DNA of 46,872 nucleotides from Actinomycetota bacterium (GTDB lineage: Bacteria; Actinomycetota; Acidimicrobiia; Spongiisociales; UBA5794). Position 1 is the first letter of the stretch. Each line of letters begins with the position of its first letter. The notes below the pieces were generated by a model. That model ran no database searches. It saw only the letters and a program-made list of their open reading frames with translations, and had not been told where the DNA came from. The position numbers were made by a program, and so were the translations under genes. This document shows positions 26,422-46,507 of the stretch, piece after piece. The stretch covers positions 1 through 46,872 of the forward strand of contig JASJXX010000010.1 of the NCBI GenBank assembly GCA_030123765.1. Reading direction: 5' to 3'.

Positions 26422-26462
26422 CCACGGAACAGCAATCGAGTCGATGAGAAGGAGGGCACCAA

Positions 26463-27565: not shown

Positions 27566-27575
27566 GAGCCCAACG

Positions 27576-30599: not shown

Positions 30600-31891
30600 T
30601 GGGTACCGAGGTAAGTCCAAAGATCGATCCGTCGAGGGTCATGGAGCACGAGCACTACGAGCTCGAGGGTGTCGACATCTCCGGTCATTGGAACCGGATG
30701 TTTGAACAGCGAGTCATCTTTGACTACGACATTGAGCAGCTCGATCGTGTCACCGCGCTCGACGGTGGCGAGTCGATGGGCTGGTGCTATCAGTGCTCCC
30801 AGTGCACCGCCGTCTGCCCCGTTGATCACGTCGGCGACTACGGGCCGCGCAAGATCTATCGCAAGCTCCAGGTCGGCATGGACTTCTTCACGAGCGACGA
30901 CCTGTGGCTGTGCACTACCTGCGCGAACTGTCTGCGCGTCTGCCCCAAAGAGGTCGACATGCTTCAGATCATTCCTGCCGCTCGCAAGGAGGCTGTGCTC
31001 GAGGGCGCCGTTCCTTCCGAGCTCCAGGAGGTGTTTGAGAAGACTGCCCGATACGGCAACCCGCTCGGGAAGAACCCGAAACGTCGTGTGGCGTGGACGA
31101 AAGGCCTCGACGTCGAAGTACCGATCATCGCTGATCTCGACCGCAAGGTGGACGTGCTGTGGTGGGTGAGCGACTACCCGTCCTACCACCCGCGTGGGAT
31201 GGAGGCGTCGCGGAGCCTTGCCCGGGTGCTCACGCACCTGGGAGTCGACTTCGCGATCCTCGGAGCCGAGGAGCGTCACGACGGCGACTCGATGCTCCGC
31301 GCGGGAGAGGAAGGCCTCTTCGAGATGCTCGCCGACCAGAACATCGAAACACTCAACAAGTACGAATTCGATCTCTTACTGACCACCGACCCGCACGCGT
31401 ACAACGCGTTCCTTCACGAATACCCGCAGAGGGGCGGCACCTACAAGGTGGAGCACTACTCCACATACCTCGCGGAGCGAATCGAGGAGCTCGGGCTCTC
31501 CCACGACGTCGGGGGCAGAGTCACCTTCCACGACCCGTGCTACCTCGGGCGCCAGAACGGCGTGTACGACGAGCCACGCGCGCTGATCGAGGCTCTCCCG
31601 GGCGTGGAACTGGTCGAGATGTGGCGCAACCGTCAGAACGGCTACTGCTGTGGGGGTGGAGGCGGCGGAATGTGGCTCGACGGGCTCGCGGCGGAGAACC
31701 AGTCGATGCGCCTATCAGAGAAACGCGTGCTTGAAGCCGTCGAGACAGGGGCAGACACGCTGTGTGTCGTCTGCCCGTACGAGGTGTCCCGCTTCGAGGA
31801 TGCCGTCAAATCGACGAACAACGACGGTGCCCTTGTGGTGCGCGACATCTCAGAGCTGCTAGCGACAGCCCTGGGTCTGGCAACGAACTGA
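30599..31891 (+). CDS. shdrB3: sHdrB3, fused HdrC-HdrB subunit
   Basis: A 430-residue fusion. The N-terminal part carries two [4Fe-4S] sites, CYQCSQCTAVCP (C63-C73) and CTTCANCLRVCP (C105-C115), as in HdrC. The C-terminal part has CCG-type motifs DPCYLGRQNGVYDEPR and YCCGGGGGGMW, then VVCPYEVSRFED. Type II sHdr systems replace separate C2 and B2 subunits with such a fusion and associate with EtfAB, which indeed follows. The protein closely resembles the C-terminal half of the membrane oxidoreductase at 33642, suggesting common origin. Confidence 0.88.
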   Translation: MGTEVSPKIDPSRVMEHEHYELEGVDISGHWNRMFEQRVIFDYDIEQLDRVTALDGGESMGWCYQCSQCTAVCPVDHVGDYGPRKIYRKLQVGMDFFTSDDLWLCTTCANCLRVCPKEVDMLQIIPAARKEAVLEGAVPSELQEVFEKTARYGNPLGKNPKRRVAWTKGLDVEVPIIADLDRKVDVLWWVSDYPSYHPRGMEASRSLARVLTHLGVDFAILGAEERHDGDSMLRAGEEGLFEMLADQNIETLNKYEFDLLLTTDPHAYNAFLHEYPQRGGTYKVEHYSTYLAERIEELGLSHDVGGRVTFHDPCYLGRQNGVYDEPRALIEALPGVELVEMWRNRQNGYCCGGGGGGMWLDGLAAENQSMRLSEKRVLEAVETGADTLCVVCPYEVSRFEDAVKSTNNDGALVVRDISELLATALGLATN

Positions 31892-31911
31892 CAAGCAAAG
31901 TAGGAGTGGGA

Positions 31912-32676
31912 ATGAAGATCGCGGTGCTGATGCGGGCTGTGCCCGACCCGGTGGAGGAACTCGAGATCGGAGACGACGGTGTCGACCTCGACCGGGACTT
32001 CCTGGGATACGTGCTCAACGAGTTCGATGACCACGCGCTTGAGGAGGGCCTCCTTCTCCGGGAGGAGACCGGCGGGTCACTGACGGCGTACGCGATCGGT
32101 ACGGCAGACGAGGTCACCCAGATGCTCCACACCGCGATTGCGAAAGGTGCAGACTCCGCGAAGCAGCTCGGGGAGGATCTCGACGTCATCGATGCCCACG
32201 CGCAAGCCGCGGCCTTCGTCGACGCGGTGCGTGACACCGGCTTCGATCTGATCCTCTCCGGAGTTCAGGCTTCGGACGAGCTCGACGGTCAGGTCGCCAT
32301 GCTCGTCGCTGCAGCACTGGGGCTGCCCCACATCTCCGTCGTCGTGTCTGCGACGCCTCACGAGGCAGGCCTCAAGGTCACGAAGGAGTATTGGGCGGGC
32401 ATCACGGCCGAGTACGAGATCGATCTGCCGGCTGTACTCGGAGTCCAGACAGCCCGCGAGGCACCGAGATACGTCGCTGTTGCCCGCATCAGGCAGGCAC
32501 AGGAGTCCGGTGCTCTCGAGTCGCTCGATCTCGATCAGCCCGATCCCGCCGGACGCATCCGGGTCACCGCTATGCGGTTGTCCGAGACCGGTGACGGCGC
32601 CGAGATGATCGAGGGTGACGAAGAAGCGGCTGCCGAACGGGTCTACGAGATCCTGGCTTCGGCCGGCGTGGTGTAG
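31912..32676 (+). CDS. etfB: Electron transfer flavoprotein beta subunit
   Basis: A 254-residue EtfB. KIAVLMRAVPDP opens the protein, a Rossmann-like alpha/beta domain follows, and DLILSGVQASDELDGQVAMLVAAALGLP is the characteristic central block. It should bind AMP or a second flavin at the interface with EtfA. ATG 31912 has AGGAG upstream at a good distance. Placement between shdrB3 and a membrane ETF oxidoreductase indicates that it takes electrons from the sHdr complex. Whether this pair is bifurcating cannot be read here. Confidence 0.9.
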   Translation: MKIAVLMRAVPDPVEELEIGDDGVDLDRDFLGYVLNEFDDHALEEGLLLREETGGSLTAYAIGTADEVTQMLHTAIAKGADSAKQLGEDLDVIDAHAQAAAFVDAVRDTGFDLILSGVQASDELDGQVAMLVAAALGLPHISVVVSATPHEAGLKVTKEYWAGITAEYEIDLPAVLGVQTAREAPRYVAVARIRQAQESGALESLDLDQPDPAGRIRVTAMRLSETGDGAEMIEGDEEAAAERVYEILASAGVV

Positions 32677-32685
32677 GGAGACGAC

Positions 32686-33645
32686 ATGGCAGAGAACATT
32701 CTCGTATACGTGGAGCACCTCAATGGTGAAGTCACGGACGCCTCATTCGGACTGATTGCCCTTGCGAGGCAATTGGCCTCAGTGAACGGGGCGAGCGTTG
32801 AGGCCGCGATAATCGGTGGCGGCGCACATGGACTCGCTGCGAAACTCGCGGGAGCGGACACGATCCTCGTTGGCGACACCGACACGTTCGGTGACTTCAA
32901 CCCCCAGGGCCACTCGGAAGTCTTCGCAGCCCTCGTGACATCCCGAGAACCCGCCATCACGCTCGTGCCGTACACCTCGGTGGGAATGGACATCGCGAGC
33001 CTGACGGCTGCAACCTGCAATCTCCCCCTCGTCTCCTACTGCCTCAGCGTCGACGCGCAGGACACGCTGTCAGCGACCTGCCAGCTCTACGGCGGAAAGG
33101 TGGAAGTGGACGTCGAGGTTGAGGGCGACCGCGCCATTTTCGCGATGCTCGCCGGCTGTGCCAGCCCGGACGAGGGGCGGAGCGGCGGTGCCGGGGTGGT
33201 CGAGTCGATAGATGTCGCCGTGCCTGACCTCGGTATCACGTTCGTGTCACTCACCGAGCCCGAGAGCGGCGACGTCGACATCACGACGGAGGACATCCTC
33301 GTCGCGATCGGTCGTGGCATCGAGTCGGAGGACAACATCGAAGAGGCCCAGGAGCTCGCCGATGCACTCGGGGCTGCCCTTGCTGCGTCGCGGCCGATCA
33401 TCGACCAGGGCTGGCTCCCGAAGAGCCGCCAGGTCGGTAAGTCAGGGCTCTCCGTGAAACCGAAGGTCTACCTCGCACTCGGCATCTCGGGCGCCCCTGA
33501 GCATCTCGAAGGGATGCGTGACTCTTCGACGATCATCGCGGTGAACTCCGATCCCCAGGCGCCGATCTTCGGTGTCGCCCACTACGGCTGGGTCGGGGAC
33601 ATATTCGACTTCATGCCAGAGCTCACCGCCCGGCTCGAAGGTTGA
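32686..33645 (+). CDS. etfA: Electron transfer flavoprotein alpha subunit
   Basis: A 319-residue EtfA with the canonical C-terminal FAD domain: SRPIIDQGWLPKSRQVG, VKPKVYLALGISGAPEHLEGM and INSD-like AVNSDPQAPIFGVAHYGWVGD. The N-terminal domain is shorter and more divergent. It should hold the electron-carrying FAD and dock to the membrane oxidoreductase encoded next. Its stop overlaps that gene's TTG start by four bases (TTGA), implying balanced synthesis. Confidence 0.93.
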   Translation: MAENILVYVEHLNGEVTDASFGLIALARQLASVNGASVEAAIIGGGAHGLAAKLAGADTILVGDTDTFGDFNPQGHSEVFAALVTSREPAITLVPYTSVGMDIASLTAATCNLPLVSYCLSVDAQDTLSATCQLYGGKVEVDVEVEGDRAIFAMLAGCASPDEGRSGGAGVVESIDVAVPDLGITFVSLTEPESGDVDITTEDILVAIGRGIESEDNIEEAQELADALGAALAASRPIIDQGWLPKSRQVGKSGLSVKPKVYLALGISGAPEHLEGMRDSSTIIAVNSDPQAPIFGVAHYGWVGDIFDFMPELTARLEG

Positions 33646-35750
33646 GGGTGCTTCCTGTGATCTTCGGAGCCGGGACCGTCACGAGAGAAGTCGGGCGCGA
33701 GATCTTCCTCGGCTTCTCCGGGATCGCGATCGCGATCTTCTACCTGCTCACGACCATCGCGATCGGCCTCTTCGTGTGGGCCTTCTACCGACGATTCCGC
33801 AAATACTCGCGGGGAAGGCCTACGGCGAGGCTCAGCCTCAAGCGGTTCGTGCGCGCACTCGCAGACCTCGGATCGAACCGCACGATCGCCAAGCGGAAGC
33901 CGATCGTCGGCATCGCCCACTTCTTCGTGTTCTGGGGCTTCATCGTCCTGCTCCTCGGTACGACGATCATCGCGATCGACGTGGACATCATCGGAGTGCT
34001 ACTGGGAAGGCCGGAGTGGCAGTTCTGGCACGGCGCGTTCTACATCGGCTACGCCCTCGTGCTCGACATCTTCGGCATCGGCTTCGTCGCGGGCCTCATC
34101 ACTCTCGCCGTGGTTCGGCGGAGAAAGCCTGCGAGACTCGATTACACGAGGGTCGACGATGTCGAGGCGCAGAGGCGGGGTTACTCCCTCGACGACAACG
34201 CCTTCCTCCTGCTGCTGCTCTTCATCGGAGTGTCAGGATTCCTCCTCGAAGGGTTCCGGATCGCGGCGACGAACTATCCGAGCTTCGAGGTTGTCTCGAT
34301 CGCTGGTTGGACGATCGCGTGGCTCACGGGACCCCTCGGCGCGGCCGGGAACGACGCTGCGCGGATCGTCACGTGGTGGATCCACTCCCTGGCAGCACTT
34401 CTCTTCGTTGCGTACCTCCCCTACTCCAAGGGGATGCACATCATCGACGACGCAGCGAACCTTGCGTTCTATGAGCCGCGCTCGGCAGCGGTGCTTGCAG
34501 GTGTCGAAGATCCCGCCGCTCCCGGCTACCGGTCCATCGCAGACTTCACCTGGAAGGACCTCCTCGACCTCGATGCGTGCACGAAGTGCGGGCGGTGTCA
34601 CGAAGTCTGTCCGGCGACGGCGTCCGGGTCGCCACTCTCACCGCGGGACCTCATCCTTGATCTCCGTGAGCACGCCGACGCGAAGGCCGGGCTCAAGCTG
34701 TGGTACGGCCCCGGCGCGACACCGGGACATGGCGACGCGACCGAAGTCGCTGGCACCGTCATCGCTGCCGACACGCTCTGGGCATGCACAACCTGTATGG
34801 CATGCATGGAGGTGTGCCCCGTCGGGATCGAGCACATCCCGACCATCGTCCAGCTACGTAGACGCCTCGTCGACGTCGGCGACGTCGAGGCGGGTTTGCA
34901 GAGCGCCTTCCAGTCCCTCGCCCGCAGCGGAAACAGCTTCGGGAAGTCAGCCAAGCAGCGTGCCCGCTGGACAAAGGGCCTCGACTTCACCCTCAAGGAC
35001 GCCCGCAGGGAACCTGTCGACTATCTCTGGTTCGTCGGTGATCATGGATCCTTCGACCCGAGGGCATCCGACGTCTCGCAAGCCGTCGCAAGGCTGATGC
35101 ATGAGGCAGGTGTCGACTTCGGGATCCTCTATGACGGGGAGCGCAACACAGGCAACGACGTGCGCCGGGCAGGTGAGGAGGGACTCTTCGAGATGCTCAG
35201 GGACGCGAACGTCGAAGCATTCGAATCGGCCTCGTACCAACGCATGTTCACGACAGATCCCCACTCTCTCAACGCCCTGCGGGGTGAGTACCCGACCGAC
35301 GAGGATGTGCTCCACTACACCGCGCTCCTCGACGACTTCGTGGCCTCAGGCAGGCTCACTCTCGGGAAGCTCAACGGAAAAGCCACGTACCACGACCCCT
35401 GCTACCTCGGCAGATACCAGGATGAGTACAACGCCCCACGTCGACTCATCGAAGCGACCGGGCTCGAGGTGGTCGAGATGGGCCGCTGCCGCGAGAACAG
35501 CTTCTGCTGTGGGGCGGGTGGGGGCCGCATCTGGATGGACGACTCGTCGCTTGAGGAGCGGCCCGCCGAGAATCGGATTCGTGAGGCTGTGGCACTCGGC
35601 GACGACGTCGCCTACTTCGTCGTTTCCTGCCCGAAGGACATGATCATGTACACGGACGCCGTCAAGACGACGGGGAACGAAGGCGTGATCGAGGTCGTCG
35701 ACATCGCGCAACTCCTCGAACGCGCGATGGAGGTGGTGCCCGTTGGCTAA
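33642..35750 (+). CDS. emo: Membrane ETF:quinone oxidoreductase (EMO type)
   Basis: A 702-residue membrane protein. The first 280 residues have about five helices like the NarI/b-type cytochrome fold, with histidines in or next to them (HFFVFWG, WHGAFYIG, WWIHSLAAL, GMHI) that could ligate heme b. Next come two [4Fe-4S] motifs, CTKCGRCHEVCP and CTTCMACMEVCP, and an HdrD-like part with DPCYLGRYQDEYNAPR and FCCGAGGGRIW. This matches ETF:(methyl)menaquinone oxidoreductases described from syntrophs and actinobacteria. It would move electrons from EtfAB to the quinone pool. TTG 33642 overlaps etfA; GTG 33657 is an alternative start. Confidence 0.88.
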   Translation: MRVLPVIFGAGTVTREVGREIFLGFSGIAIAIFYLLTTIAIGLFVWAFYRRFRKYSRGRPTARLSLKRFVRALADLGSNRTIAKRKPIVGIAHFFVFWGFIVLLLGTTIIAIDVDIIGVLLGRPEWQFWHGAFYIGYALVLDIFGIGFVAGLITLAVVRRRKPARLDYTRVDDVEAQRRGYSLDDNAFLLLLLFIGVSGFLLEGFRIAATNYPSFEVVSIAGWTIAWLTGPLGAAGNDAARIVTWWIHSLAALLFVAYLPYSKGMHIIDDAANLAFYEPRSAAVLAGVEDPAAPGYRSIADFTWKDLLDLDACTKCGRCHEVCPATASGSPLSPRDLILDLREHADAKAGLKLWYGPGATPGHGDATEVAGTVIAADTLWACTTCMACMEVCPVGIEHIPTIVQLRRRLVDVGDVEAGLQSAFQSLARSGNSFGKSAKQRARWTKGLDFTLKDARREPVDYLWFVGDHGSFDPRASDVSQAVARLMHEAGVDFGILYDGERNTGNDVRRAGEEGLFEMLRDANVEAFESASYQRMFTTDPHSLNALRGEYPTDEDVLHYTALLDDFVASGRLTLGKLNGKATYHDPCYLGRYQDEYNAPRRLIEATGLEVVEMGRCRENSFCCGAGGGRIWMDDSSLEERPAENRIREAVALGDDVAYFVVSCPKDMIMYTDAVKTTGNEGVIEVVDIAQLLERAMEVVPVG

Positions 35751-36228
35751 GCAGAGCACCCCCGTCCACATCCAGAGCGCCAAAGAGGACGACCCGACAG
35801 CCCGCGCTCTGGGCCTGGACGTCGCAGGAATACTGCGCTACCAGGCCGATGTTCTCGACCGCGAGGACCGCCTTGAATCGGGAACGGGCAGATGGAGAGA
35901 GTCCTTTCAGACGGATCAGACCGCCAGGCACCTTGCGGCGAAGGAGTCCGTGCTCCGCACCATCCAGATCGCGTCGAACCCGGAGTGTTTCCGCATCATC
36001 GAGGCGCTGCACACGTCGGAGAATCTCACATCGAGTGAGCTCGTCGAAATAACGGGTCTCGGCAGGCTGACCCTCCAGGAGCGGATCGGCGACCTGGTGT
36101 CTGCCGGCCTCGTCTCGAAGATCCCCGAGGCGGACCAGATCGTTATCACCGCAGGCGGCCACGCAATAGCCGAGCTCGTCCGTCGCGCGGCCGCCGTGAC
36201 AGCCCACGACCTCGCGAGCAAGAGATGA
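35743..36228 (+). CDS. Unknown winged-helix-like protein in sulfur operon
   Basis: A 161-residue protein I cannot assign to a named family. Residues about 70-150 look like a winged helix: CFRIIEALH, then LTSSELVEITGLGRLTLQERIGDLVSAGLV, then a short hairpin with QIVITAGGHAIAEL. The N-terminal 60 residues are charged and polar. It overlaps emo by eight bases (TTG start) and the next gene by four, so it is made with the pathway enzymes. It could be an operon-specific regulator, or a wing-fold protein used as a docking module. Confidence 0.6.
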   Translation: MAKQSTPVHIQSAKEDDPTARALGLDVAGILRYQADVLDREDRLESGTGRWRESFQTDQTARHLAAKESVLRTIQIASNPECFRIIEALHTSENLTSSELVEITGLGRLTLQERIGDLVSAGLVSKIPEADQIVITAGGHAIAELVRRAAAVTAHDLASKR

Positions 36229-36509
36229 GGTGTCCCTTCTGTGAGCGGACCGGCACCCGTCCCGAGCTCCACGCCCACCTCACGGACGACCATGCTCAAG
36301 AGGTGATCACAGAGAAGGACTCCTGGGGGAGACGGTTCATGGAGCTGCAGTGCCCGTCATGCGACGAGGGCCACCGCCAGGAAGTCAAGCCTCGTTACAA
36401 AGATCCGCAGTTCCTCGAGGAGCACTTTCGCGAGATCAGGCTTGTGGCATTCGACTTGTTCCTCTATCACTGGGAGGACAAACACGACCAGGAGACGTCC
36501 CATGAGTGA
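36225..36509 (+). CDS. Unknown small zinc-finger-like protein
   Basis: A 94-residue protein with two CxxC-H-H patterns: C3 and C6 (CPFC) followed by H16/H18/H23, and C43 and C46 (CPSC) followed by H82 and H87 (YHWEDKH). Both could bind zinc in a C2H2-like manner. No known family comes to mind. It overlaps the preceding gene by four bases and lbpA1 by eight, so it sits between the electron-transfer and lipoate modules. Possible roles are a scaffold or chaperone for LbpA or a nucleic-acid-binding partner of the winged-helix protein; neither is shown by the sequence. Confidence 0.6.
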   Translation: MRCPFCERTGTRPELHAHLTDDHAQEVITEKDSWGRRFMELQCPSCDEGHRQEVKPRYKDPQFLEEHFREIRLVAFDLFLYHWEDKHDQETSHE

Positions 36510-36939
36510 GATACGCGGTTGCAACATCCCAGAGGATCTCTACTACTGGCCGGAGAAACACGTGTGGGCTGCTCCCCAGGATGACGGGTCCGTGATCATC
36601 GGCGTGACGGACGTCGCGCAGAGCCTTGCCCGCTCCATCATCTCCGCGCTTCCCAAGAAGGTGGGAAGGCCGGCGAAGAAGGGCCGGTCACTCGGCACGA
36701 TCGAGAGCGGAAAATGGGTCGGTCCGGTAACTTCCCCCGTCAACGGCGAGATTCTCGAAGTCAACCCCGTTCTTGGCTCCGATCCGGGGATCATCAACAC
36801 GGATCCGTACGGCGAAGGCTGGTACATGAGGATCATGCCCGTCGACTGGGATGCCGACGTCGCGGACCTCGTCACCGGCCAGGACGCGCTCACTGCCTAT
36901 GCAGCGTTCCTTGAGGCGGAGGGGATCGAATGCGGGTGA
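36502..36939 (+). CDS. lbpA: LbpA1, lipoate-binding protein
   Basis: A 145-residue GcvH-like protein of the LbpA type. RGCNIPEDLYYWPEKHVWA begins the fold and includes an N-terminal cysteine (C7) found in LbpA but not in glycine-cleavage H protein. TIESGKWVGP places the lipoylated lysine at K71. Two turns later comes NTDPYGEGWYMRI. Lipoyl-LbpA is the proposed carrier on which the sHdr complex oxidizes sulfur. No other glycine cleavage genes are nearby. Confidence 0.9.
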   Translation: MSEIRGCNIPEDLYYWPEKHVWAAPQDDGSVIIGVTDVAQSLARSIISALPKKVGRPAKKGRSLGTIESGKWVGPVTSPVNGEILEVNPVLGSDPGIINTDPYGEGWYMRIMPVDWDADVADLVTGQDALTAYAAFLEAEGIECG

Positions 36940-36943
36940 CCCG

Positions 36944-37393
36944 ATGATCGTGCATCGCGGCTGCGCGATCCCCGACGGACTCTCCTACGACGTCGACCGC
37001 GACCTGTGGGTGCGGTTTGAGGACGACCTGGCTCGCATGGGCCTGACCGACGTCGCGCAGACGCGCATGGGGAAGATGGTGTCGATCCGCTTCAAGCGAG
37101 TGGGGAGGCACATCGAGGCGGGCAAGTCGATCGCCACGGTCGAGTCGGCAAAGTGGGTCGGTCCCATCCACTCGCCCTTCGACGGGGAGATCATCGCTAC
37201 CAATGACGAGGCGTACGCCGCGGACATCCTCGTCGCGAACAGGGACCCTTACGAGGCGGGATGGATCTCCATCGTGCGACCTGACGACCCGGCCACAGCA
37301 CCCGACGGGCTTCTCACCAGCGACGCGGCCGTCGAGGCGTATCGAGCCCGCATCGAGATGCTCGACCTCAGTTGTTACAGGTGCGCCGACTGA
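36944..37393 (+). CDS. lbpA: LbpA2, lipoate-binding protein
   Basis: A 149-residue second LbpA. It shares HRGCAIPDGLSYDVDRDLWV (C7) and TVESAKWVGPIHSPFDGEI, with the lipoyl lysine at K70, and RDPYEAGWISIV. The C-terminal tail adds SCYRCAD, a CxxC pair not seen in LbpA1. The two proteins are clear paralogues; organisms with LbpA1/LbpA2 pairs are known. ATG 36944 lies four bases after the previous stop, and its TGA overlaps the next ATG by one base. Confidence 0.9.
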   Translation: MIVHRGCAIPDGLSYDVDRDLWVRFEDDLARMGLTDVAQTRMGKMVSIRFKRVGRHIEAGKSIATVESAKWVGPIHSPFDGEIIATNDEAYAADILVANRDPYEAGWISIVRPDDPATAPDGLLTSDAAVEAYRARIEMLDLSCYRCAD

Positions 37394-38448
37394 TGGAGCT
37401 GCGCGTCATCGACTTCGGGCGGGTCTCGGCTCTCCGTAGCCAGACCCTGTGGCACGCCATTGCGTACGGCGTATCGGAGGGTGCACCGCCGACGCTCTCC
37501 TTCATGACACCCGCGACGCCGTACGTCTCAATCGGGCTCCACGTCAACATCGACGCCGTCGACGTCAACGCGTGCAAACGCGCGGGGCTGCCGGTGTTTC
37601 GCCGTATGGTCGGAGGAGGCCCCGTCTACCTCGACGACGATCAGCTCTTCTTCCAGATCACCCTCCCCGACTCGATGGCGCCAGCGATGCGCTCTCGCGC
37701 CGTACGTGTCCTGCTCAACCCTGTAGTAGCGGCGTTCCAGCAGATCGGTATCGACGCAGAGCTCGACGACGCGAACGAGATCGTCGTGGGGGACCGCAAG
37801 ATCTGTGGCCACGCTGCCGGCCAGATCGGGAGTGCCGTGGTCGTTGTGGGGAATCTCATCACCGGCTTCAACCACGATGCTGCGGCTTCGATAGCGAGCA
37901 CGCCGAACCGCGCAGCTGCCGGCATGTTCCGCCAGATGCTCGAACGCTACGTCACCGCCGTGGACGCCGACCCTCGTGCCTTCATGGAAGCTGCCGTTGC
38001 TACGTACACCGAAGCCCTCTCCTCCCTTCAGGGGGAGCAGGCGGGCGACGTGAGCTACGTGAGGGGGAGGCCGCCGTTCGGCGAGCCCGACGCGGGAGAC
38101 CCCCTCGCATCCCTCACGCCTTACGAACTCGAGAAGCTTGAAGAGCTCGACCGCAAGCTCGCTGACCCGACCTTCATTCGGGGGGAGTCCCGACGAACGA
38201 GAGCCCCGTGGCGAATCAAGGTCAAGTCCGGCGTGTGGGTGTACGGCCACGCGAACGAGTCAGCCACCGCAGTCCTCGGGCTGGTCGACGACGTCATCAC
38301 CGAGGTAACTCTCGTGGGCGCAGGCCGAGACACGGAGAAGCTCATAGGGGAGCTGGTGGGGAGCGGGCTCCCTCACGCCGCAGACCGGATTGCCAGGGAG
38401 GGCCACATGGGCGCGACGATCGCGCAGCTCGTCGAAGCCATGACGTGA
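37393..38448 (+). CDS. Lipoate-protein ligase family protein (sLpl-like)
   Basis: A 351-residue member of the LplA/LipB/BirA fold. FRRMVGGGPVYLDDDQLFFQ is the RRxxGGG lipoyl-AMP loop and NEIVVGDRKICGHAAGQ holds the conserved lysine. A C-terminal extension of about 110 residues (WRIKVKSGVWVYGH to GHMGATIAQ) looks like the accessory LplB-type domain. It should attach octanoate or lipoate to the LbpA proteins. A second family member lies at 39912, so this copy may have a distinct role such as amidotransfer or a different target. Confidence 0.85.
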   Translation: MELRVIDFGRVSALRSQTLWHAIAYGVSEGAPPTLSFMTPATPYVSIGLHVNIDAVDVNACKRAGLPVFRRMVGGGPVYLDDDQLFFQITLPDSMAPAMRSRAVRVLLNPVVAAFQQIGIDAELDDANEIVVGDRKICGHAAGQIGSAVVVVGNLITGFNHDAAASIASTPNRAAAGMFRQMLERYVTAVDADPRAFMEAAVATYTEALSSLQGEQAGDVSYVRGRPPFGEPDAGDPLASLTPYELEKLEELDRKLADPTFIRGESRRTRAPWRIKVKSGVWVYGHANESATAVLGLVDDVITEVTLVGAGRDTEKLIGELVGSGLPHAADRIAREGHMGATIAQLVEAMT

Positions 38449-38458
38449 AAGGACCGAT

Positions 38459-38914
38459 ATGGCGACACAGAACATTGACGGATTCGAGATCAGAACAGAT
38501 CTCGTGTACGACGTCGGTGCGCATCTCTGGATGAACGTCACTCAGGACGGGATCATCTCCGTGGGTGTCGACCCGCTCGGTATCGAGACGTTCGGCACAC
38601 TCGCTCAGATCGCACTCGAAGCGCCGCCGATCAACCTCGAACGCGGAATGCATTTCGGATCCATGGAGGCGGAGAAGTTCGTCGGGACCCTCGTGAGCCC
38701 CATCGCTGGGCTCCTCACAGAACGCAACGAGGTGGTGATGGCCGATCCGGGCATCGTCGAGCGCGACCCGTACGGCGACGGCTGGCTCATCAAGATCAAG
38801 ATGAGCACAGACCCCACCACGCTCCCCTACCTCACATCAGGCGCAGACGCCGTCATCGAAGCGTTCGAGAAGCGCGTCGCGGCGTACCGGCTCGAGGGGG
38901 TGCTTGCAGAATGA
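38459..38914 (+). CDS. Third, divergent lipoate-binding protein
   Basis: A 151-residue GcvH-like protein. SMEAEKFVGTLVSPIAG gives a candidate lipoyl lysine K73, and ERDPYGDGWLIKIKM matches the strand after it in LbpA1 and LbpA2. It lacks the N-terminal RGC(N/A)IP segment and its cysteine, and has EAEKFVG in place of ES(G/A)KWVG. It may be a lipoyl relay between synthesis enzymes and LbpA, like GcvH in lipoyl-relay bacteria, rather than a substrate carrier. AAAGGA precedes the ATG, and the stop overlaps the next gene. Confidence 0.82.
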   Translation: MATQNIDGFEIRTDLVYDVGAHLWMNVTQDGIISVGVDPLGIETFGTLAQIALEAPPINLERGMHFGSMEAEKFVGTLVSPIAGLLTERNEVVMADPGIVERDPYGDGWLIKIKMSTDPTTLPYLTSGADAVIEAFEKRVAAYRLEGVLAE

Positions 38915-39912
38915 CGACGACCCCAGGATCGGCAGAGGCCTTCGACCTCCGACTCAGGAACTTCGGGACCGGCATCGAGTTTTACGCGCCAGGCCTGAAA
39001 CGATGGGAGACATCTGAGTGGAAGCCGGAGAATCCACGAAAGTTCCTCCCCATCTCGGTGACGGGCAGCGCGTGCGCTCTCTCATGTGACCACTGCCAGA
39101 CGAAGGTCCTCGATGGCATGATCTCTGTCCGAGCAGACCTGGACCTCTTCGCTCTGGCAACGAGGCTCCAACGATCGGGGACGGATGGGCTCCTCGTGTC
39201 GGGTGGATCGGGGAAGGGTGGCGGCGTCCCACTGCTCCGCCATCTCGACGACATCAGGAGGATCCGCGAGGAGCTCGGCATGAAGGTCGTCGTGCACTCA
39301 GGGGTCATCGATCCGAAGACTGCCGCGGGCCTCGCCAGGGTCGGTGTCGACGGAGTCATGCTCGACATAATCGGCGCCAACGAAACGATCCGCGACGTGT
39401 ACCACCTGGATCTCACGATCGAGGCGTTCGATGAGTCTCTGGCACTCCTCGCGGAGCAAGAACTTCGCATCATTCCGCACATCGTGCTGGGGATGCACTA
39501 CGGGAAGTTCCTCGGTGAGTACACGGCTCTCGACATGATCGCGAGGTACCCGGTGTCGACGCTGATCGTCGTTGTGCTCGTGCCGCTCGTCGGCACGCCG
39601 ATGGAGCACGTCCCACCACCCCCGATCGATGAGTGCGCGGACTTCTTCGAGACGGCCCGGTTAGCGCTGCCCACAACCAAGATCAATCTCGGTTGTGGGC
39701 GACCGATGGGCGATGACAAGATCGCGCTCGACCATGCGGCCGTCGACTTCGGGTTCAACGGCATCGCGTACCCCGCTGAAGGCATCATCGAGTACGCACG
39801 ACAGAAGGGGCTCACCCCGGACATGTATGAATACTGCTGCTCGCTCACGTGGGTCGGTTCCGAAGGCGAGTCGTACCGCTCGGTCTCCCTGGCAGATCCG
39901 GTGCTCGTCTGA
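38911..39912 (+). CDS. lipS2: Radical SAM lipoyl synthase component, LipS2-like
   Basis: A 333-residue radical SAM enzyme. GSACALSCDHCQTKVL contains the CxxxCxxC motif binding the SAM cluster; VVVHSGVIDP and VMLDIIGANETIRDVYHLD are barrel strands. RNFGTGIEFYAPGLKRWETSEW near the N-terminus is distinctive. LipS1 and LipS2 together insert two sulfurs into octanoyl-lysine in archaea and sHdr bacteria, replacing LipA. Naming this one LipS2 and the next LipS1 is by resemblance and could be swapped. Confidence 0.82.
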   Translation: MTTTPGSAEAFDLRLRNFGTGIEFYAPGLKRWETSEWKPENPRKFLPISVTGSACALSCDHCQTKVLDGMISVRADLDLFALATRLQRSGTDGLLVSGGSGKGGGVPLLRHLDDIRRIREELGMKVVVHSGVIDPKTAAGLARVGVDGVMLDIIGANETIRDVYHLDLTIEAFDESLALLAEQELRIIPHIVLGMHYGKFLGEYTALDMIARYPVSTLIVVVLVPLVGTPMEHVPPPPIDECADFFETARLALPTTKINLGCGRPMGDDKIALDHAAVDFGFNGIAYPAEGIIEYARQKGLTPDMYEYCCSLTWVGSEGESYRSVSLADPVLV

Positions 39913-41033
39913 TGGAGTGGCGTTACCTCACCAGCAACGGCGTCGACGCGGCGGAGGGTCTGGCCGAAGACGAGGCCCTCATGTTGTCTCACGGCCGAAG
40001 CGAGGAGCACAGCCCCTCCATCCTCAAGCTCTACACGTACAGCGACCACGTCGCGTTGTGCGGCCGATTCCAACACATCGAGGCCGAGATCGATATCGAC
40101 GCATGTACGACTTCGCGAACGCCGTTCAACCGGCGGCCAACGGGGGGAGGGGCCATCGTGATGGGGTCCGGCCAACTCGGTGTCGCCGTACTCACTCGCA
40201 GCCCGGCCGAGAAGTCACCCAAGGCGCTGCTCATGGAGTTCTCCGAGGGCATTCTCGCTGCGCTCGCGACGCTCGGCGTCGAGGCAGCCTTCGGGGGGAA
40301 GAACGACCTGAAGGTCGAAGGTAAGAAGGTCGCTGGCCTGGGCCTCTACGTCGATAAGGAGGGCGCGCTGCTCTTTCACGCGTCGATACTCGCCGACCTG
40401 GACATCTCCTTCATGCTTGAGGTGCTCAACATCCCGGCAGCCACGCTCGGGCCGGACGCAGTGCGAGCCGTCGAGAGCAGAGTCACCACAGTGACACGTG
40501 AGACGGGACGCCAGTGGACGGGCGCCGATCTCATCTCCGTGGTCACCGATGGTTTCGTCACGACACTCGGTGTCGAGCTCATCGCGGACAAGCCCACGGA
40601 ACGCGAGCAGCTTGCGGCAGACAAGCTCGTCGAGACGAAGTACGCGACCGACAAGTGGCGGTTCATGCGTTCACCCCACCCCGATGCAACCGCGACCTCA
40701 GTGGTGAGGACCCCACACGGCACGATCCGCGCCTATCTCTCTCTCCAAGGTGACATCATCAAGAGCGCCTTGTTCGCAGGTGACGTGAACACGATCCCGG
40801 AACCGGTCGCCGATTTCGAATCGCGGCTGAAGTGGTCGCGTCTCTCCGAGAAGTCCGTCGTGGCGGCCGCTCAGGCAGCGTTCAGCAACGGGACTGGTCT
40901 TGATATCGAACCGAACGACCTCGTCGCTGCGATCCTCGACGCAGGGAGCCGTGCCCTGGGACGCGAGATCGTCGCGCCGCACCGGTTAGGTTCCTGCTAC
41001 TTTCCTGACACGAGCAAGGAACCGGTGCGATGA
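39912..41033 (+). CDS. sLpl(AB)-type lipoate-protein ligase
   Basis: A 373-residue LplA-like ligase. NRRPTGGGAIVMGSGQLGV is the nucleotide/lipoate loop, FGGKNDLKVEGKKVAGLGLYV carries the catalytic lysine, and LLFHASILADLDISFMLEVLN follows. The C-terminal 100 residues (TPHGTIRAYLSLQGDIIKSALFAGD) form the LplB-like accessory domain in the same chain, as in the sLpl(AB) proteins linked to shdr loci. It should adenylate octanoate or lipoate and load LbpA. ATG 39912 overlaps the lipS2 stop by one base, and its own stop overlaps lipS1 by four. Confidence 0.88.
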   Translation: MEWRYLTSNGVDAAEGLAEDEALMLSHGRSEEHSPSILKLYTYSDHVALCGRFQHIEAEIDIDACTTSRTPFNRRPTGGGAIVMGSGQLGVAVLTRSPAEKSPKALLMEFSEGILAALATLGVEAAFGGKNDLKVEGKKVAGLGLYVDKEGALLFHASILADLDISFMLEVLNIPAATLGPDAVRAVESRVTTVTRETGRQWTGADLISVVTDGFVTTLGVELIADKPTEREQLAADKLVETKYATDKWRFMRSPHPDATATSVVRTPHGTIRAYLSLQGDIIKSALFAGDVNTIPEPVADFESRLKWSRLSEKSVVAAAQAAFSNGTGLDIEPNDLVAAILDAGSRALGREIVAPHRLGSCYFPDTSKEPVR

Positions 41034-42151
41034 CCACAACCAGCCTTCGCGTCGAAGGAACCAAGCTCGAGCTGCTCCCCGCTCGGACGGAGAAGCAGGA
41101 GAGCCCCGACTGGGTACGGATCTCGATGGCAAGCGCTCTTGCGCTGCGGTACCGGTCGGGTCGATTCACCCGGGACTTCGATTTCGGTGGCATCAACCTG
41201 CTCCTCAACTACAGCTCCGGTTGCAGGTCGGACTGCAGCTACTGCGGGCTCGCGAGGACACGCCCTGGCATGTACGAGGACAAGTCCTTCATCCGGGTCG
41301 AATGGCCACTCGTCGAACTCAACGACCTCATCAACCGGATGGCGGAGCACCACGGCACCCTGACACGGCTCTGCATCTCGATGGTCACCCACGGGCGTGC
41401 CTACGCGGACACCGCTGAGATCATCAGACGCATCCGCACGAAGGTGGACGCGCCCCTCTCGATACTCGTGGCGCCGCCCACATTGAGCCGGGAGCGCCTC
41501 ACAACGTTCAAGGACTTCGGCGCCGACATGATCGGCATCGGCCTCGATGCGGTGACCGAGGACCTCTTCCGCCGGCACCGCAGCAACGTGCCTTCGGGTG
41601 GCGGCCTGTCATGGGATCAGTACTGGGAGATCGTCGCCATTGCTAGAGAGATCTACGGACCATGGAAGGTCAACTGTCACACTCTCGTCGGCCTGGGCGA
41701 GACGGACAAGGAGGCCATCGGCATGTTCATCCGGCTCTGCGACCAGGAGATCTACCCCTACCTGTTCTGCTTCAACCCTGAGGAGGACTCGCGGATGGGG
41801 GAGCAGCCGAAGTCACCCATCCGGCGGTGGCGGCGAATCCAGCTCGCAAAGCATCTCGTCGAGTTCAACAGCTACCGATGGGACAAATTCACGTTCGACG
41901 ACCAGGGAGCGCTCACCGGCATCGTCGAGCCATCGAACGCCGACCAGGTGGTTGCCGCTGCGGTGGCGTCCGGCACGCCATTCGAGACCGATGGTTGCCC
42001 GAGCGATGACGGCGGCCCGGGATGCACGCGGCCGTACGGCTCCTACGGACCTGCGGAGTCGTTCCGGGACTTCCCGTTCGCTCCGACGAGCGGCGACCTC
42101 GCAACGATCACACAAGAGATGGCCCTCGACGAGATCCTGACTAATCGGTAA
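41030..42151 (+). CDS. lipS1: Radical SAM lipoyl synthase component, LipS1-like
   Basis: A 373-residue radical SAM protein. YSSGCRSDCSYCGLARTRPG carries the CxxxCxxC cluster motif. HTLVGLGETDKEAI is the later barrel block. A C-terminal pair in DGCPSDDGGPGCTRPYG could help bind the auxiliary cluster that donates sulfur. With its LipS2-like partner it should convert octanoyl-LbpA to lipoyl-LbpA. The two synthase genes flank the ligase gene, and all three overlap at their ends. Confidence 0.83.
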   Translation: MTTTSLRVEGTKLELLPARTEKQESPDWVRISMASALALRYRSGRFTRDFDFGGINLLLNYSSGCRSDCSYCGLARTRPGMYEDKSFIRVEWPLVELNDLINRMAEHHGTLTRLCISMVTHGRAYADTAEIIRRIRTKVDAPLSILVAPPTLSRERLTTFKDFGADMIGIGLDAVTEDLFRRHRSNVPSGGGLSWDQYWEIVAIAREIYGPWKVNCHTLVGLGETDKEAIGMFIRLCDQEIYPYLFCFNPEEDSRMGEQPKSPIRRWRRIQLAKHLVEFNSYRWDKFTFDDQGALTGIVEPSNADQVVAAAVASGTPFETDGCPSDDGGPGCTRPYGSYGPAESFRDFPFAPTSGDLATITQEMALDEILTNR

Positions 42152-42162
42152 GGAGAGCGACC

Positions 42163-43779
42163 CTGCGCTACGGATTCGTGATCGATCAGACGACGTGCAT
42201 CGGATGCCACGCGTGCACGGTCGCGTGCAAGACGGAGCACCAGGTGCCCCTCGGCGTGAACCGCACCTGGGTGAAGTACGTCGAACAGGGCACGTGGCCG
42301 GACACGAAGCGGTCATTCTCCGTGATGCGTTGCAACCACTGCACCGATGCGCCATGCGTGACGATCTGCCCGACGTCTGCGCTGTACAAGCGCAGCGACG
42401 GCATCGTCGATTTTGATACGTCGCGTTGTATCGGATGCAAGTCGTGCATGCAGGCTTGCCCCTACGACGCCCTCTACATCGACCCGCAGGACCAGACGGC
42501 CCAGAAGTGCAACTACTGCGTCCACCGCGTCGAGATAGGTATCGAACCTGCGTGCGTCGTGGTCTGCCCTGAGCAGTCGATCATCGCTGGCGACCTTGAC
42601 GACCCGACGACCAAGATCGCCCGGATGGTCGCAGCGGGCGATCTCACCCAGAGAGCAGTCGAACGAGGCACCGCGCCGAACCTCTGGTACAAGGGCGTCG
42701 AGATGGCGAACATCGAGCCACTCGCAGCGACACGAACATCCGACGGCGGTATCTGGCGCGACGCAGCGGGGATGGATCAGTCCTGGCTCAATGTGGACCT
42801 CACCACAGACGCCGACGGCGCCCGGGTTGGGGGTGCCCCACCGGACCGAAGAGTGAGTGACGACGCCGGACAGCCGCGGGTGGTCTACGCGAACGACTTC
42901 CCGATGCCCTGGGGCTGGCGAGTATCGAGCTACTTCCTCACCAAGGCCATCTCGGCAGGCATCGCGATCTCAGCAGCGATGGCGCTCCTCTTCGGTGCAG
43001 CGCTTGAGTCGATGTGGATGCGCCTCGCCGCTCCACTCGCAGGCGGACTGCTCCTCCTTCTGACCGGTGTACTGCTGGTATGGGACCTCAAGCGACCTGA
43101 CCGTTTCTACTACCTGCTCACGAAGGGGAACCCGTCTTCGTGGCTCGTTCGCGGCGCGTGGATACTCACCGCGCAGGCAATCGCCTTCGGCGCCTGGTTC
43201 CTGGCCGCGTTGCTTGGACTCGACGGGACTGCCCGGGTCGCTGTCTGGGCTGCGGCGGTGATCGGGCTCGCGACAGCGGGTTACACGGCGTTCCTCTTCG
43301 GGCAGGCGAAGGGACGCACGTTGTGGAACAGCCCGATCCTCGTGTGGCACATGATCGCGTCGGCATTCGCTGTCGGCGGGAGCGCTGCGCTCGTTGCTTC
43401 CCTCGTCTCGGTGACAGACCGAGCAGCAGGGTCGGAGAGCGTGTTCTTGGCCGAGCATCTGCCGGTAGGTACAGCAGCTTTTGCATGGACCATGGTTCTC
43501 GGCGCTGTAGGACTCGCCATCACCACGGGGTTCGAAGCGGCAGCGAAGCATGAACCGGACGCAGCGCTCGCCTATCACCACATGACCAGAGGCGTGTTCG
43601 CTGGCCGATACCGTGCAGGCCTCGTCCTCAGCATCCTGATCCCGGTTGTCGCAGGAGTCGTAATTCTCTCCGGAGCAAGCGTCGCCTTCGCAGCAGCCGG
43701 CGGGATCTCCGCCATGGTCGGCGTCCTCCTCGTGGACGACGCATTCGTGCGAGCCGGGCAGAGCGTCCCGTTGACATGA
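42163..43779 (+). CDS. Fused ferredoxin - NrfD-type membrane protein (SoeBC-like)
   Basis: About 538 residues. The first 180 contain four [4Fe-4S] sites as in DmsB/PsrB/SoeB (CIGCHACTVACK, CNHCTDAPCVTICP, CIGCKSCMQACP, CNYCVHRVEIG...CVVVCP). After a linker, eight hydrophobic helices form an NrfD/DmsC-like quinone-binding anchor. No signal peptide is present, so the clusters face the cytoplasm. I start it at CTG 42163: AAGGAG lies seven bases upstream, and the resulting RYGFVIDQTTCIGC is the normal beginning of this ferredoxin family. The first ordinary start, GTG 42178, is too far from that site. It pairs with the Mo enzyme that follows eight bases later. Confidence 0.88.
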   Translation: MRYGFVIDQTTCIGCHACTVACKTEHQVPLGVNRTWVKYVEQGTWPDTKRSFSVMRCNHCTDAPCVTICPTSALYKRSDGIVDFDTSRCIGCKSCMQACPYDALYIDPQDQTAQKCNYCVHRVEIGIEPACVVVCPEQSIIAGDLDDPTTKIARMVAAGDLTQRAVERGTAPNLWYKGVEMANIEPLAATRTSDGGIWRDAAGMDQSWLNVDLTTDADGARVGGAPPDRRVSDDAGQPRVVYANDFPMPWGWRVSSYFLTKAISAGIAISAAMALLFGAALESMWMRLAAPLAGGLLLLLTGVLLVWDLKRPDRFYYLLTKGNPSSWLVRGAWILTAQAIAFGAWFLAALLGLDGTARVAVWAAAVIGLATAGYTAFLFGQAKGRTLWNSPILVWHMIASAFAVGGSAALVASLVSVTDRAAGSESVFLAEHLPVGTAAFAWTMVLGAVGLAITTGFEAAAKHEPDAALAYHHMTRGVFAGRYRAGLVLSILIPVVAGVVILSGASVAFAAAGGISAMVGVLLVDDAFVRAGQSVPLT

Positions 43780-43786
43780 GGTACCC

Positions 43787-46507
43787 ATGACAGACATACA
43801 ACTGCCACGCATCACCGAGGGCGCTGACCTCGTGAACTTCCCACCTCCGGACCGCTGGGACGACTGGGAGGAGTACGACGCGCAGTCCTGGCCGAAGCGC
43901 GTCACGAATCGGTTCCGTCTCATCCCCACGACCTGCTTCAACTGTGAGTCGGCGTGTGGCCTCCTCGCCTACGTCGACAAGGACACAGGGGAGATCCAGA
44001 GGTTCGAGGGGAACCCGGAACATCCGGGTTCACGTGGCCGCAACTGTGCGAAAGGCCCGGCCACCATCAACCAGGTCCACGACCCCGAGCGGATCCTCTA
44101 CCCGCTGCGCAGAGTGGGTGAGCGTGGCGGCGGCGAGTGGGAACGCGTCAGTTGGGAGGAAGCGCTCACCGACATCGGCACGCGTATGGGAACAGCGATC
44201 CGCGAAGGCCGTAACGACGAGATCATGTACCACGTTGGGAGACCGGGGGAGGACGGCTTCATGGACCGCACCCTCAAGGCGTGGGGCGTTGACGGCCACA
44301 ACAGCCACACGAACATATGCAGCTCCAGTGCAAGAGTCGGATACGCCCTGTGGTCCGGGTACGACCGCCCTTCGGCAGACTTCGCCAACGCGAAATTCAT
44401 TCTGCTCCTGTCTGCTCATCTCGAGACGGGCCACTACTTCAACCCGCACGCGCAGAGGATCATGGAGGCGAAACAGGCGGGTGCCCGGATCGCGACCGTC
44501 GATCCGAGACTGTCGAACACCGCGTCGATGTCTGACTACTGGCTCTCCTGCTGGCCCGGCACTGAACCCGCGATGCTCCTCGCCATGGCCCGCCTCCTCC
44601 TCGAGTGGGACGCCGTCGACCACGACTTCATGCGACGATGGGTGAACTGGGAGGACTCCCTCGAGAGCCTGTACCCGGAGCGGCCAAGGACGTACGAGTC
44701 GTTCATCGATGCCCTCAAGGGCGAGTACGCACACTTCACACCGCAGTGGGCGGGTGACGAGTGCGGCATCGAAGCTGCACAGATCGAGGAGGTTGCCCGC
44801 CAGATCGCTGACGCGGGCCACGCGTTCTCCTCCCACACGTGGCGTTCGGTCGGCTCAGGGAATCTGAGCGGCTGGCAGGGTGCCCGCACCCTCCAGTTCC
44901 TCCACGTGCTCACCGGGTCTGTCGGCACCAAGGGCGGCCTCTCCCCCTCGGGTTGGGTGAAGTTCAAGCCGCCGCACTGGAACATGCCCCCGGCACACTC
45001 GCAGTGGAACGAGCTGCTCTGGCCGAAGGAGTACCCGCTGGCACATCACGAGCTGAGCATGCTCCTGCCTCACTTCCTCAGAGAGGGGCGTGGCAGGCTC
45101 GACGTGTACTTCACTCGGGTGTACAACCCTGTGTGGACGAACCCTGACGGGTTCTCCTGGATCGAGATGCTCACCGACACCGAGAAAGTCGGGCTCCATG
45201 TCGCCCTGACCCCGACCTGGTCAGAGACGGCGTGGTACGCCGACTACGTGCTCCCGATGGGTGTGGCGGCGGAACGCCACGATACCCACAGCTACGAGAC
45301 ACACGCAGCGAAGTGGCTCGGCTTCCGCCAGCCGGTGCTGCGGGTCGCGGCCGAACGGGACGGAAGGACCATCCACAGGACGTACGAGACGAACCCCGGC
45401 GAGGTATGGGAGGAGACGGAGTTCTGGATCGACCTGTCGTGGAAGATCGATCCTGACGGGTCGCTCGGCATCCGGAAGTGGTTCGAGTCCCCGAACGATC
45501 CGAGCAAACCCATCTCTGTGGACGAGTACTACGGCTGGATGTTCGAGAACTCCGTGCCGGGCCTGCCCGAGAAGGCAGCAGCACAGGATCTGACTCCCCT
45601 CGCATACATGCGTAAGTACGGTGCCGTCGAGATAGAACGCGACGTGTACAAGGTCAATGAGCGACCGGTCGAGCAGGGCGGCGTCGAGATCGACGGCACC
45701 ATGCGCGAGGGCTTCAAGACGCCGAGCAAGAAACTCGAGTGGTACTCAAGGACCATGGAGGAGTGGGGGTGGCCGGATGAGGCGATCCCGGGTTACCAGA
45801 GGACCCACGTCTACTGGCGGGACATGGATATGGAGGGGAGCGAACGCATCCTGCTCCCGATCTTCCGCCTCCCTACCCTGATTCACACCCGCTCGGGAAA
45901 CGCCAAGTACCTTTACGAGATCAGCCACGGGCATCCGCTGTGGATGAATGCCACAGATGCAGAGAAACTCGGATTCGCAACAGCGGATCTTGTGCGGATC
46001 GAGACAGATTCGGGACACTTCGTAATGCGGGTGTGGGCGACAGAGGGGATCAGGCCGGGTGTCGTCGCAGCCTCCCACCACCTCGGCCGGTGGCGCACAG
46101 AGGACAAGACCGGAAACGAGCGGTGGTCCTCCGCCCTCGTCAACATCGAGCAGCTCGGCGATGGAAAGTGGAGGCTGCGCCAACTCAAGGGGATCGAGCC
46201 GTTCACCTCTGATGACCCTGACTCGGAACGGATCTGGTGGAAGGACCCGGGCGTGAACCAGAACCTCGCCTTCCCCGTGCATCCGGACCCGATCTCAGGC
46301 ATGCATGCGTGGCACCAGCGTGTGCGCCTCGTCAAACCCGAACCGGGAGACCGCTACGGCGACGTCGTCGTCGATACGAACAAGAGCTTCGCCGTCTACA
46401 AGGAGTGGCTCGCCAAGACGAGGCCCGGCCCGGGCCCTGGAGGCCTCCGGCGCCCCCTCTGGTTCGACCGGCCTGTCAGACCGACGCTGGACGCCTACCA
46501 GGCATAG
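43787..46507 (+). CDS. Cytoplasmic molybdopterin oxidoreductase (SoeA-like)
   Basis: A 906-residue bis-MGD enzyme of the DMSO-reductase family. C50, C53, C57 and C87 (CFNCESAC ... NCAKG) bind one [4Fe-4S] cluster. NICSSSARVG offers C178 as the likely Mo ligand, as in the polysulfide/thiosulfate reductase and SoeA branch. There is no twin-arginine signal, so it works in the cytoplasm with the fused ferredoxin-membrane partner. Sulfite is the expected product of sHdr, which makes sulfite dehydrogenase (SoeA) the best guess. Formate, polysulfide or another substrate is not excluded by the motifs. It ends the co-oriented cluster. Confidence 0.82.
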   Translation: MTDIQLPRITEGADLVNFPPPDRWDDWEEYDAQSWPKRVTNRFRLIPTTCFNCESACGLLAYVDKDTGEIQRFEGNPEHPGSRGRNCAKGPATINQVHDPERILYPLRRVGERGGGEWERVSWEEALTDIGTRMGTAIREGRNDEIMYHVGRPGEDGFMDRTLKAWGVDGHNSHTNICSSSARVGYALWSGYDRPSADFANAKFILLLSAHLETGHYFNPHAQRIMEAKQAGARIATVDPRLSNTASMSDYWLSCWPGTEPAMLLAMARLLLEWDAVDHDFMRRWVNWEDSLESLYPERPRTYESFIDALKGEYAHFTPQWAGDECGIEAAQIEEVARQIADAGHAFSSHTWRSVGSGNLSGWQGARTLQFLHVLTGSVGTKGGLSPSGWVKFKPPHWNMPPAHSQWNELLWPKEYPLAHHELSMLLPHFLREGRGRLDVYFTRVYNPVWTNPDGFSWIEMLTDTEKVGLHVALTPTWSETAWYADYVLPMGVAAERHDTHSYETHAAKWLGFRQPVLRVAAERDGRTIHRTYETNPGEVWEETEFWIDLSWKIDPDGSLGIRKWFESPNDPSKPISVDEYYGWMFENSVPGLPEKAAAQDLTPLAYMRKYGAVEIERDVYKVNERPVEQGGVEIDGTMREGFKTPSKKLEWYSRTMEEWGWPDEAIPGYQRTHVYWRDMDMEGSERILLPIFRLPTLIHTRSGNAKYLYEISHGHPLWMNATDAEKLGFATADLVRIETDSGHFVMRVWATEGIRPGVVAASHHLGRWRTEDKTGNERWSSALVNIEQLGDGKWRLRQLKGIEPFTSDDPDSERIWWKDPGVNQNLAFPVHPDPISGMHAWHQRVRLVKPEPGDRYGDVVVDTNKSFAVYKEWLAKTRPGPGPGGLRRPLWFDRPVRPTLDAYQA

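Follow-up and report, generated by a model that had tools for sequence, protein, structure and literature searches.

Why should a single locus encode three GcvH-like carrier proteins and two proteins of the LplA fold? The question is raised by a stretch of 46,872 nucleotides (the window), which is the entire contig JASJXX010000010.1 (C15) of an Actinomycetota bacterium with a 2.2 Mb genome at 98.6% completeness (G000). As an initial annotation had proposed, three GcvH-like proteins, two LplA-fold proteins and the radical S-adenosylmethionine (SAM) enzymes LipS1 and LipS2 are encoded on the forward strand at positions 36502 to 42151 (Table 1). The same annotation viewed these seven genes as a self-contained island, which is incorrect, as they extend an operon-like run beginning with sulfur-oxidising Hdr (sHdr) genes at 26381, and a SoeABC-like pair comes next, reaching to 46507. 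The genes sHdrC1B1AHB3 and etfAB lie in one syntenic cluster (26381-33645), the gene order by which type II sHdr is defined (PMC11582611), and, judged from gene content, the seven-gene block makes up the end of this type II sHdr-LbpA sulfur-oxidation locus that is devoted to maturation, i.e. part of a known system, a connection that the annotation had overlooked. That carriers and a ligase are encoded beside sHdr along with LipS1/LipS2 was known before, and what remains to be explained is the number of carriers, three, and of ligase-fold proteins, two. The answer proposed here, at somewhat less than an even chance, is that a type II sHdr-LbpA sulfur oxidiser uses this block as a cassette for lipoyl assembly, in the manner of a lipoyl relay.

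Conservation and placement of a five-gene cassette

Named genomes were scanned with a profile of Lpl1, the first of the two LplA-fold proteins, and the resulting loci were annotated with the window proteins. The scan returned 53 loci, from Actinomycetota (46), Armatimonadota (1), an unclassified bacterium, HR32 (1), and Aquificota (5). The Aquificota matches were considered as type I comparators and dropped, since neither the cassette nor sHdr genes lay nearby and their genomes showed no clear LipS2. In all 48 remaining loci, 46 of them labelled Actinomycetota, the order lpl1-lbp3-lipS1-lpl2-lipS2 was held as far as the contigs extend, and the complete five-gene cassette was present in 37. Wherever a contig went on, the expected neighbour was next (44/44, 40/40, 40/40 and 34/34 for the successive steps, overlapping genes counted), with median spacings of -1 to -4 bases that usually represent overlaps. 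This order, seen in each relative with enough contig, is far beyond chance.

The cassette is thus known from about 50 loci, in four different placements, and its holders include the cultured species Amycolatopsis alkalitolerans and A. acididurans (loci L069, L070). It directly follows sHdrB3 in 37 loci, mostly between sHdrB3 and etfB; in the window, as in four Acidimicrobiia relatives, it comes after lbp2; it is divergent from the adjoining sHdr genes in the Armatimonadota locus L079; and it is unlinked to sHdr in G080, a one-contig genome where it lies about 94 kb away, and in G296-G298. Where the cassette is unlinked, lbp1 and lbp2 remain behind the Etf and membrane genes, which indicates that the cassette behaves as a unit and that Lbp3 moves with the machinery. 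Of the 296 phylum genomes searched, four have a type II sHdrB1 (G000, G001, G025 and G080), exactly those containing a cassette Lpl1. LipS1 is more widespread, being present in 16 of the 296, and the others examined have one ligase and no Lpl1. In G001 a gene for an extra, divergent Cys-bearing LbpA lies downstream of lbp1-lbp2 and runs in the opposite direction (L047, 6798-7265).

Carriers and ligase-fold proteins of the block

All three carriers have the GcvH-like fold and the lipoylated lysine, as determined from Pfam matches and alignment, and they separate by their cysteines. LbpA proteins have two strictly conserved Cys residues, with exceptions among some archaeal LbpA (PMC6067878). Orthologues of LbpA-a carry Cys near both termini (31/31), as do those of LbpA-b (N-terminal 23/24, C-terminal 24/24), and the two Cys are present in both window copies. 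In Lbp3 the C-terminal Cys is absent from all 47 sequences, 36 of which contain no Cys whatsoever, and the protein is not an LbpA by this test because the proposed sulfur-binding residues are absent. In a tree of 116 carrier sequences, the 47 Lbp3 sequences formed a clade of their own (support 100/97), separate from LbpA-a and LbpA-b. The lipoylation lysine of Lbp3 (Lys73 in the window copy) is invariant (45/45), so that by sequence lipoylation of Lbp3 is possible in principle. Its structure model has a pLDDT of 94.

The two LplA-fold proteins share 19-20% identity and fall in distinct, deeply diverged clades, on which grounds a recent duplication of one ligase was rejected. Lpl2 retains the ligase motifs, namely GKND (42/43), the catalytic lysine (Lys139 in the window; 42/43) and the Gly-Asp of LplB (43/43), and it adjoins lipS1 and lipS2, the arrangement of the sLpl(AB)-LipS1/LipS2 pathway. 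Its C-terminal Lip_prot_lig_C domain (PF10437) matched barely above the cut-off, and Lpl1 lacks this domain in Pfam. The best NCBIfam matches of the two remaining open reading frames are LipS1 and LipS2, yet both score under the curated cut-offs.

Lpl1 combines an LplA fold and the catalytic lysine (Lys136 in the window; 44/44) with degenerate ligase motifs. Residues 1-267 of its model match the archaeal LplA 3r07_A (Z 24, root-mean-square deviation 2.3 over 241 residues). The Asn-Asp motif before the catalytic lysine is lost in 43/44 sequences (Asn-Glu in the window copy) and the C-terminal Gly-Asp of LplB in at least 42/44 (Gly-Ala in the window copy), both of which are retained by the ligases aligned here. 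The nearest relatives of Lpl1 in the tree also retain both almost without exception, which dates the loss to the Lpl1 branch. Two residues beyond the lysine stands the only conserved Cys of Lpl1 (Cys138 in the window; 41/44), at a position that we take to be neither that of the LipB cysteine nor that of LipM/LipL; judged from the secondary structure, Lys136 and Cys138 should face the same side of strand 135-138. The possibility that Lpl1 is a broken or chance reading frame was rejected given its 351 residues, the 40 full-length orthologues aligned and a model pLDDT of 93. Loss of the histidine in LFHAS or in GGGAVYHD was considered as proof of a dead ligase and dropped, because an active Mycoplasma ligase lacks both (PMC7186572), as do intact relatives.

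A possible lipoyl relay and its rivals

In the proposed relay, Lpl2 would act as an ATP-dependent sLpl(AB)-type ligase placing octanoate on Lys73 of Lbp3, LipS2 and LipS1 would add two sulfur atoms to the chain held there, and Lpl1, presumably unable to activate the free acid, would take the lipoyl group off Lbp3 and attach it to LbpA-a and LbpA-b; these, once lipoylated, would serve the sHdr complex. The reading takes the chemistry of sLpl(AB) and LipS1/LipS2 from the literature and builds on the observed gene identities, cassette, clades, motif losses and Cys pattern. From these sequence features, Lbp3 is a candidate assembly scaffold and Lpl1 has probably ceased to activate acids, and by analogy Lpl1 may transfer lipoyl between carriers. 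A precedent is provided by LipM-GcvH-LipL of B. subtilis and LIPT2-GCSH-LIPT1 of mitochondria, in which octanoate is loaded and converted on GcvH/GCSH, and LipL and LIPT1, LplA-fold proteins without full ligase activity, pass lipoyl to E2, the C-terminal domain of LIPT1 having diverged (PMC7253636). A more specific proposal is a shade more tentative than the relay as a whole: an archaeal-type ligase and LipS1/LipS2 would build lipoate on a private Cys-less carrier, and an LplA paralogue that evolved independently, lost its ligase activity and gained a cysteine in the active site would deliver it to the LbpA proteins of sHdr. A division of labour between two ligases and three carriers, as suggested by the initial annotation, is supported by the separate clades, the degenerate motifs of one ligase-fold protein and the grouping of the Cys-less Lbp3 with the machinery; the example that it gave, in which one enzyme would load octanoate and another would act from carrier to carrier, corresponds to the reading judged most likely from sequence.

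Several observations weigh against a relay. The Asn-Asp motif persists in the deepest Lpl1 (G025, the one exception among the 44), and Ser replaces the conserved Cys in three of the 44. The HR32 draft (G299) contains the cassette, and neither sHdrB1 nor a Cys-bearing LbpA was found in it, perhaps because the draft is fragmentary. G296 and G300 encode, next to or near lbp2, an LplA-fold protein, their third, whose motifs are intact and which could, by its sequence, load LbpA directly. Distance correlations controlled for sHdrB1/B3 were highest among three cassette proteins, in favour of the relay, at 0.76 for Lpl1-Lbp3, 0.74 for Lpl1-Lpl2 and 0.67 for Lpl2-Lbp3; those between Lpl1 and its supposed receivers were 0.57 for Lbp2 but 0.09 for Lbp1 (13-16 species), and the support from these values is weak, since linked cassette genes correlate anyway. 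For LbpA1 and LbpA2 from a type I organism, one sLpl(AB) is enough to modify both in vitro (PMC6067878), so that a relay is in principle unnecessary, and the relay is a prediction from comparative sequence evidence.

The strongest rival, although unlikely, is that Lpl1 is an octanoyltransferase moving octanoate from acyl carrier protein (or coenzyme A) to Lbp3, such that the cassette would be fed by the cell's own fatty-acid synthesis and Lpl2 would take free octanoate or lipoate or load other carriers. Lpl1 without ligase motifs, its retained Lys136 with a Cys close by, and the constant adjacency of lpl1 and lbp3 would all suit such an enzyme; the position of that Cys, presumably off those of LipB and LipM/LipL, and its replacement by Ser in some sequences would not. 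Ligases have lost the LplB unit and become LipM-type octanoyltransferases several times (PMC10332631), which favours this rival, but it makes Lpl2 partly redundant, though the cassette never loses Lpl2.

Less probable again is parallel specificity, in which Lpl2 and Lpl1 would each load different carriers with ATP, without transfer, and all three carriers would be catalytic in sHdr. Group III sHdr loci with two or three LbpA have been described without a relay (PMC6067878), Asn-Asp is still present in the deepest Lpl1, and other conserved residues are missing in some active ligases (PMC7186572). However, Lpl1 has lost both Asn-Asp and the C-terminal Gly-Asp that its nearest relatives retain, and Lbp3 is without the defining LbpA cysteines and separable from sHdr. 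The degenerate motifs and the strict pairing of lpl1 with lbp3 could also suggest that Lpl1 has no catalytic role and is a partner through which Lpl2 or LipS1/LipS2 would be offered Lbp3 or LbpA, with Lbp3 as a scaffold or regulator; this is the least probable of the readings, as a catalytic Lys in 44/44 and the adjoining Cys in 41/44 argue for chemistry.

The third LplA-fold protein mentioned above corresponds to positions 1493-2059 of L148 (an Armatimonadota genome) and 13672-14550 of L144 (G296), and belongs to the clade nearest Lpl1.

Comparison with known systems and genomic surroundings

The sLpl(AB)-LipS1/LipS2 route has been proved in proteobacteria, both in vitro and genetically, and its three enzymes correspond to Lpl2, LipS1 and LipS2, together and next to sHdr; the cassette differs in adding a ligase-degenerate Lpl1 and a Cys-less Lbp3, and in having no adjacent lipT (PMC10332631). 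No lipT was found beside LipS1/LipS2 (26381-42151), and elsewhere there was only a distant flavin adenine dinucleotide (FAD) protein (G000:C1:26048-26932, 33% identity). Published group III/type II sHdr-LbpA loci share sHdrC1-B1-A-Hyp-B3, EtfBA, three GcvH-like carriers and an actinobacterial host (PMC6067878, PMC11582611), but in their main text the Cys-less carrier is not set apart and a second ligase goes unmentioned. Those with two or three LbpA were described earlier with no relay, and the Aquifex LbpA was without lipoyl-relay activity in Bacillus (PMC6067878). Searches of the main text of PMC6067878 and PMC10332631, figures and supplements aside, met no mention of a second sLpl, a Cys-less third carrier or a relay that acts on the carriers of a sulfur oxidiser, and a literature search for "lbpA3" yielded no relevant paper.

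The LipM-GcvH-LipL and LIPT2-GCSH-LIPT1 relays resemble the arrangement proposed here in assembling lipoyl on one GcvH-like protein and, if Lpl1 acts as suggested, in a ligase-dead LplA-fold transferase (PMC7253636). They differ in starting from an octanoyltransferase and LipA rather than from an ATP-dependent ligase and LipS1/LipS2, and their receivers are E2 proteins rather than LbpA. Single-ligase clusters with LipS1, LipS2 and GcvH-like carriers also occur (G005, G067, G072, G282), but these are without Lpl1, and in G067 and G072 the ligase bears a Cys-rich C-terminal extension. Some of their carriers are among the nearest relatives of Lbp3 in the carrier tree. Such clusters (L057, L058, L170, L171, L174) have CCG proteins nearby, some lying outside any sHdr cluster, and in L057 and L058 at least the Cys-rich C-terminal half of the ligase is DUF116-like by eye.

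Neither the pathway nor the type of locus is new; what goes further than the papers cited is the split within the block, into Cys-bearing and Cys-less carriers and into an intact and a degenerate ligase-fold protein, with a testable division of labour. If the relay is real, a lipoyl relay arose separately in sulfur oxidation by way of LipS1/LipS2, and the additional ligase and carrier of actinobacterial sHdr loci are accounted for; a clear biochemical test follows, in a cassette of about 5 kb, small enough for a laboratory host. Counts of GcvH-like genes near sHdr may then also overstate the number of sulfur carriers.

Table 1. Genes of the lipoylation block and of the surrounding sHdr locus, in window positions
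Feature	Position	Strand	Basis
LbpA-a (Lbp1), Cys-bearing lipoate-binding carrier	36502-36939	+	PF01597, E 8e-30; lysine motif ESGKWVGP
LbpA-b (Lbp2), Cys-bearing carrier	36944-37393	+	PF01597, E 2e-28; lysine motif ESAKWVGP
Lpl1, LplA-fold, ligase-degenerate, proposed lipoyl transferase	37393-38448	+	LplA-B_cat, E 5e-23
Lbp3, Cys-less carrier, proposed assembly carrier	38459-38914	+	PF01597, E 1e-21; Lys73 (EAEKFVG)
LipS1, radical SAM lipoyl synthase half	38911-39912	+	NF053742, 222.7 bits (cut-off 230)
Lpl2, sLpl(AB)-type ligase with LplB domain	39912-41033	+	PF21948 (LplA-B_cat), E 1e-34; PF10437
LipS2, radical SAM lipoyl synthase half	41030-42151	+	NF053743, 175 bits (cut-off 270)
sHdrC1	26381-27565	+	HdrC/HdrB/HdrA, CCG and Fer4 family matches in the core; published type II order
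sHdrB1, sulfur-oxidising Hdr core	27576-28772	+	family matches and order
sHdrA, sulfur-oxidising Hdr core	28765-29823	+	family matches and order
Hypothetical H (Hyp)	29820-30599	+	position in the type II sHdr order
sHdrB3, fused C2/B2-type, sulfur-oxidising Hdr core	30599-31891	+	family matches and order
EtfB and EtfA	31912-33645	+	Etf family matches; diagnostic of type II sHdr
Membrane CCG/Fer4 protein	33642-35750	+	family matches; precedes lbp1-lbp2 in relatives too
ArsR/MarR-type regulator	35743-36228	+	family matches; precedes lbp1-lbp2 in relatives too
Small Cys/His-rich zinc-finger-like protein	36225-36509	+	immediately upstream of lbp1 in the majority of type II sHdr loci examined
SoeBC-like Fe-S/NrfD fusion	42178-43779	+	Fer4_11 and NrfD matches
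SoeA-like molybdoprotein	43787-46507	+	sequence inspection and synteny

The SoeBC-like fusion and SoeA-like protein downstream of the block are likely, by sequence, to perform cytoplasmic sulfite oxidation. A scan for sigma-70 promoters and terminators gave fewer matches than in shuffled sequence. Housekeeping lipoylation in the same genome is encoded separately, GcvH on contig C89 and LipB-LipA, as a fusion, on C107, as identified by family and protein searches. The window ends (46531-46872) inside the gene of a 2-oxoacid dehydrogenase E2, of which it contains the lipoyl domain, cut in a repeat-rich linker, and C107 ends in an E2 catalytic domain followed by the 550-residue LipB-LipA fusion (L042, G000:C107:5000-8244), such that C15 and C107 may be neighbours, with the housekeeping lipoylation genes just downstream of the window. 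A further LplA/B-fold protein of 253 residues (L043, 1197-1958, on C96 of G000) has a Cys in the loop EYCPGEYS, which we take to resemble the cysteine loop of LipM/LipL, and is possibly a housekeeping acyltransferase.

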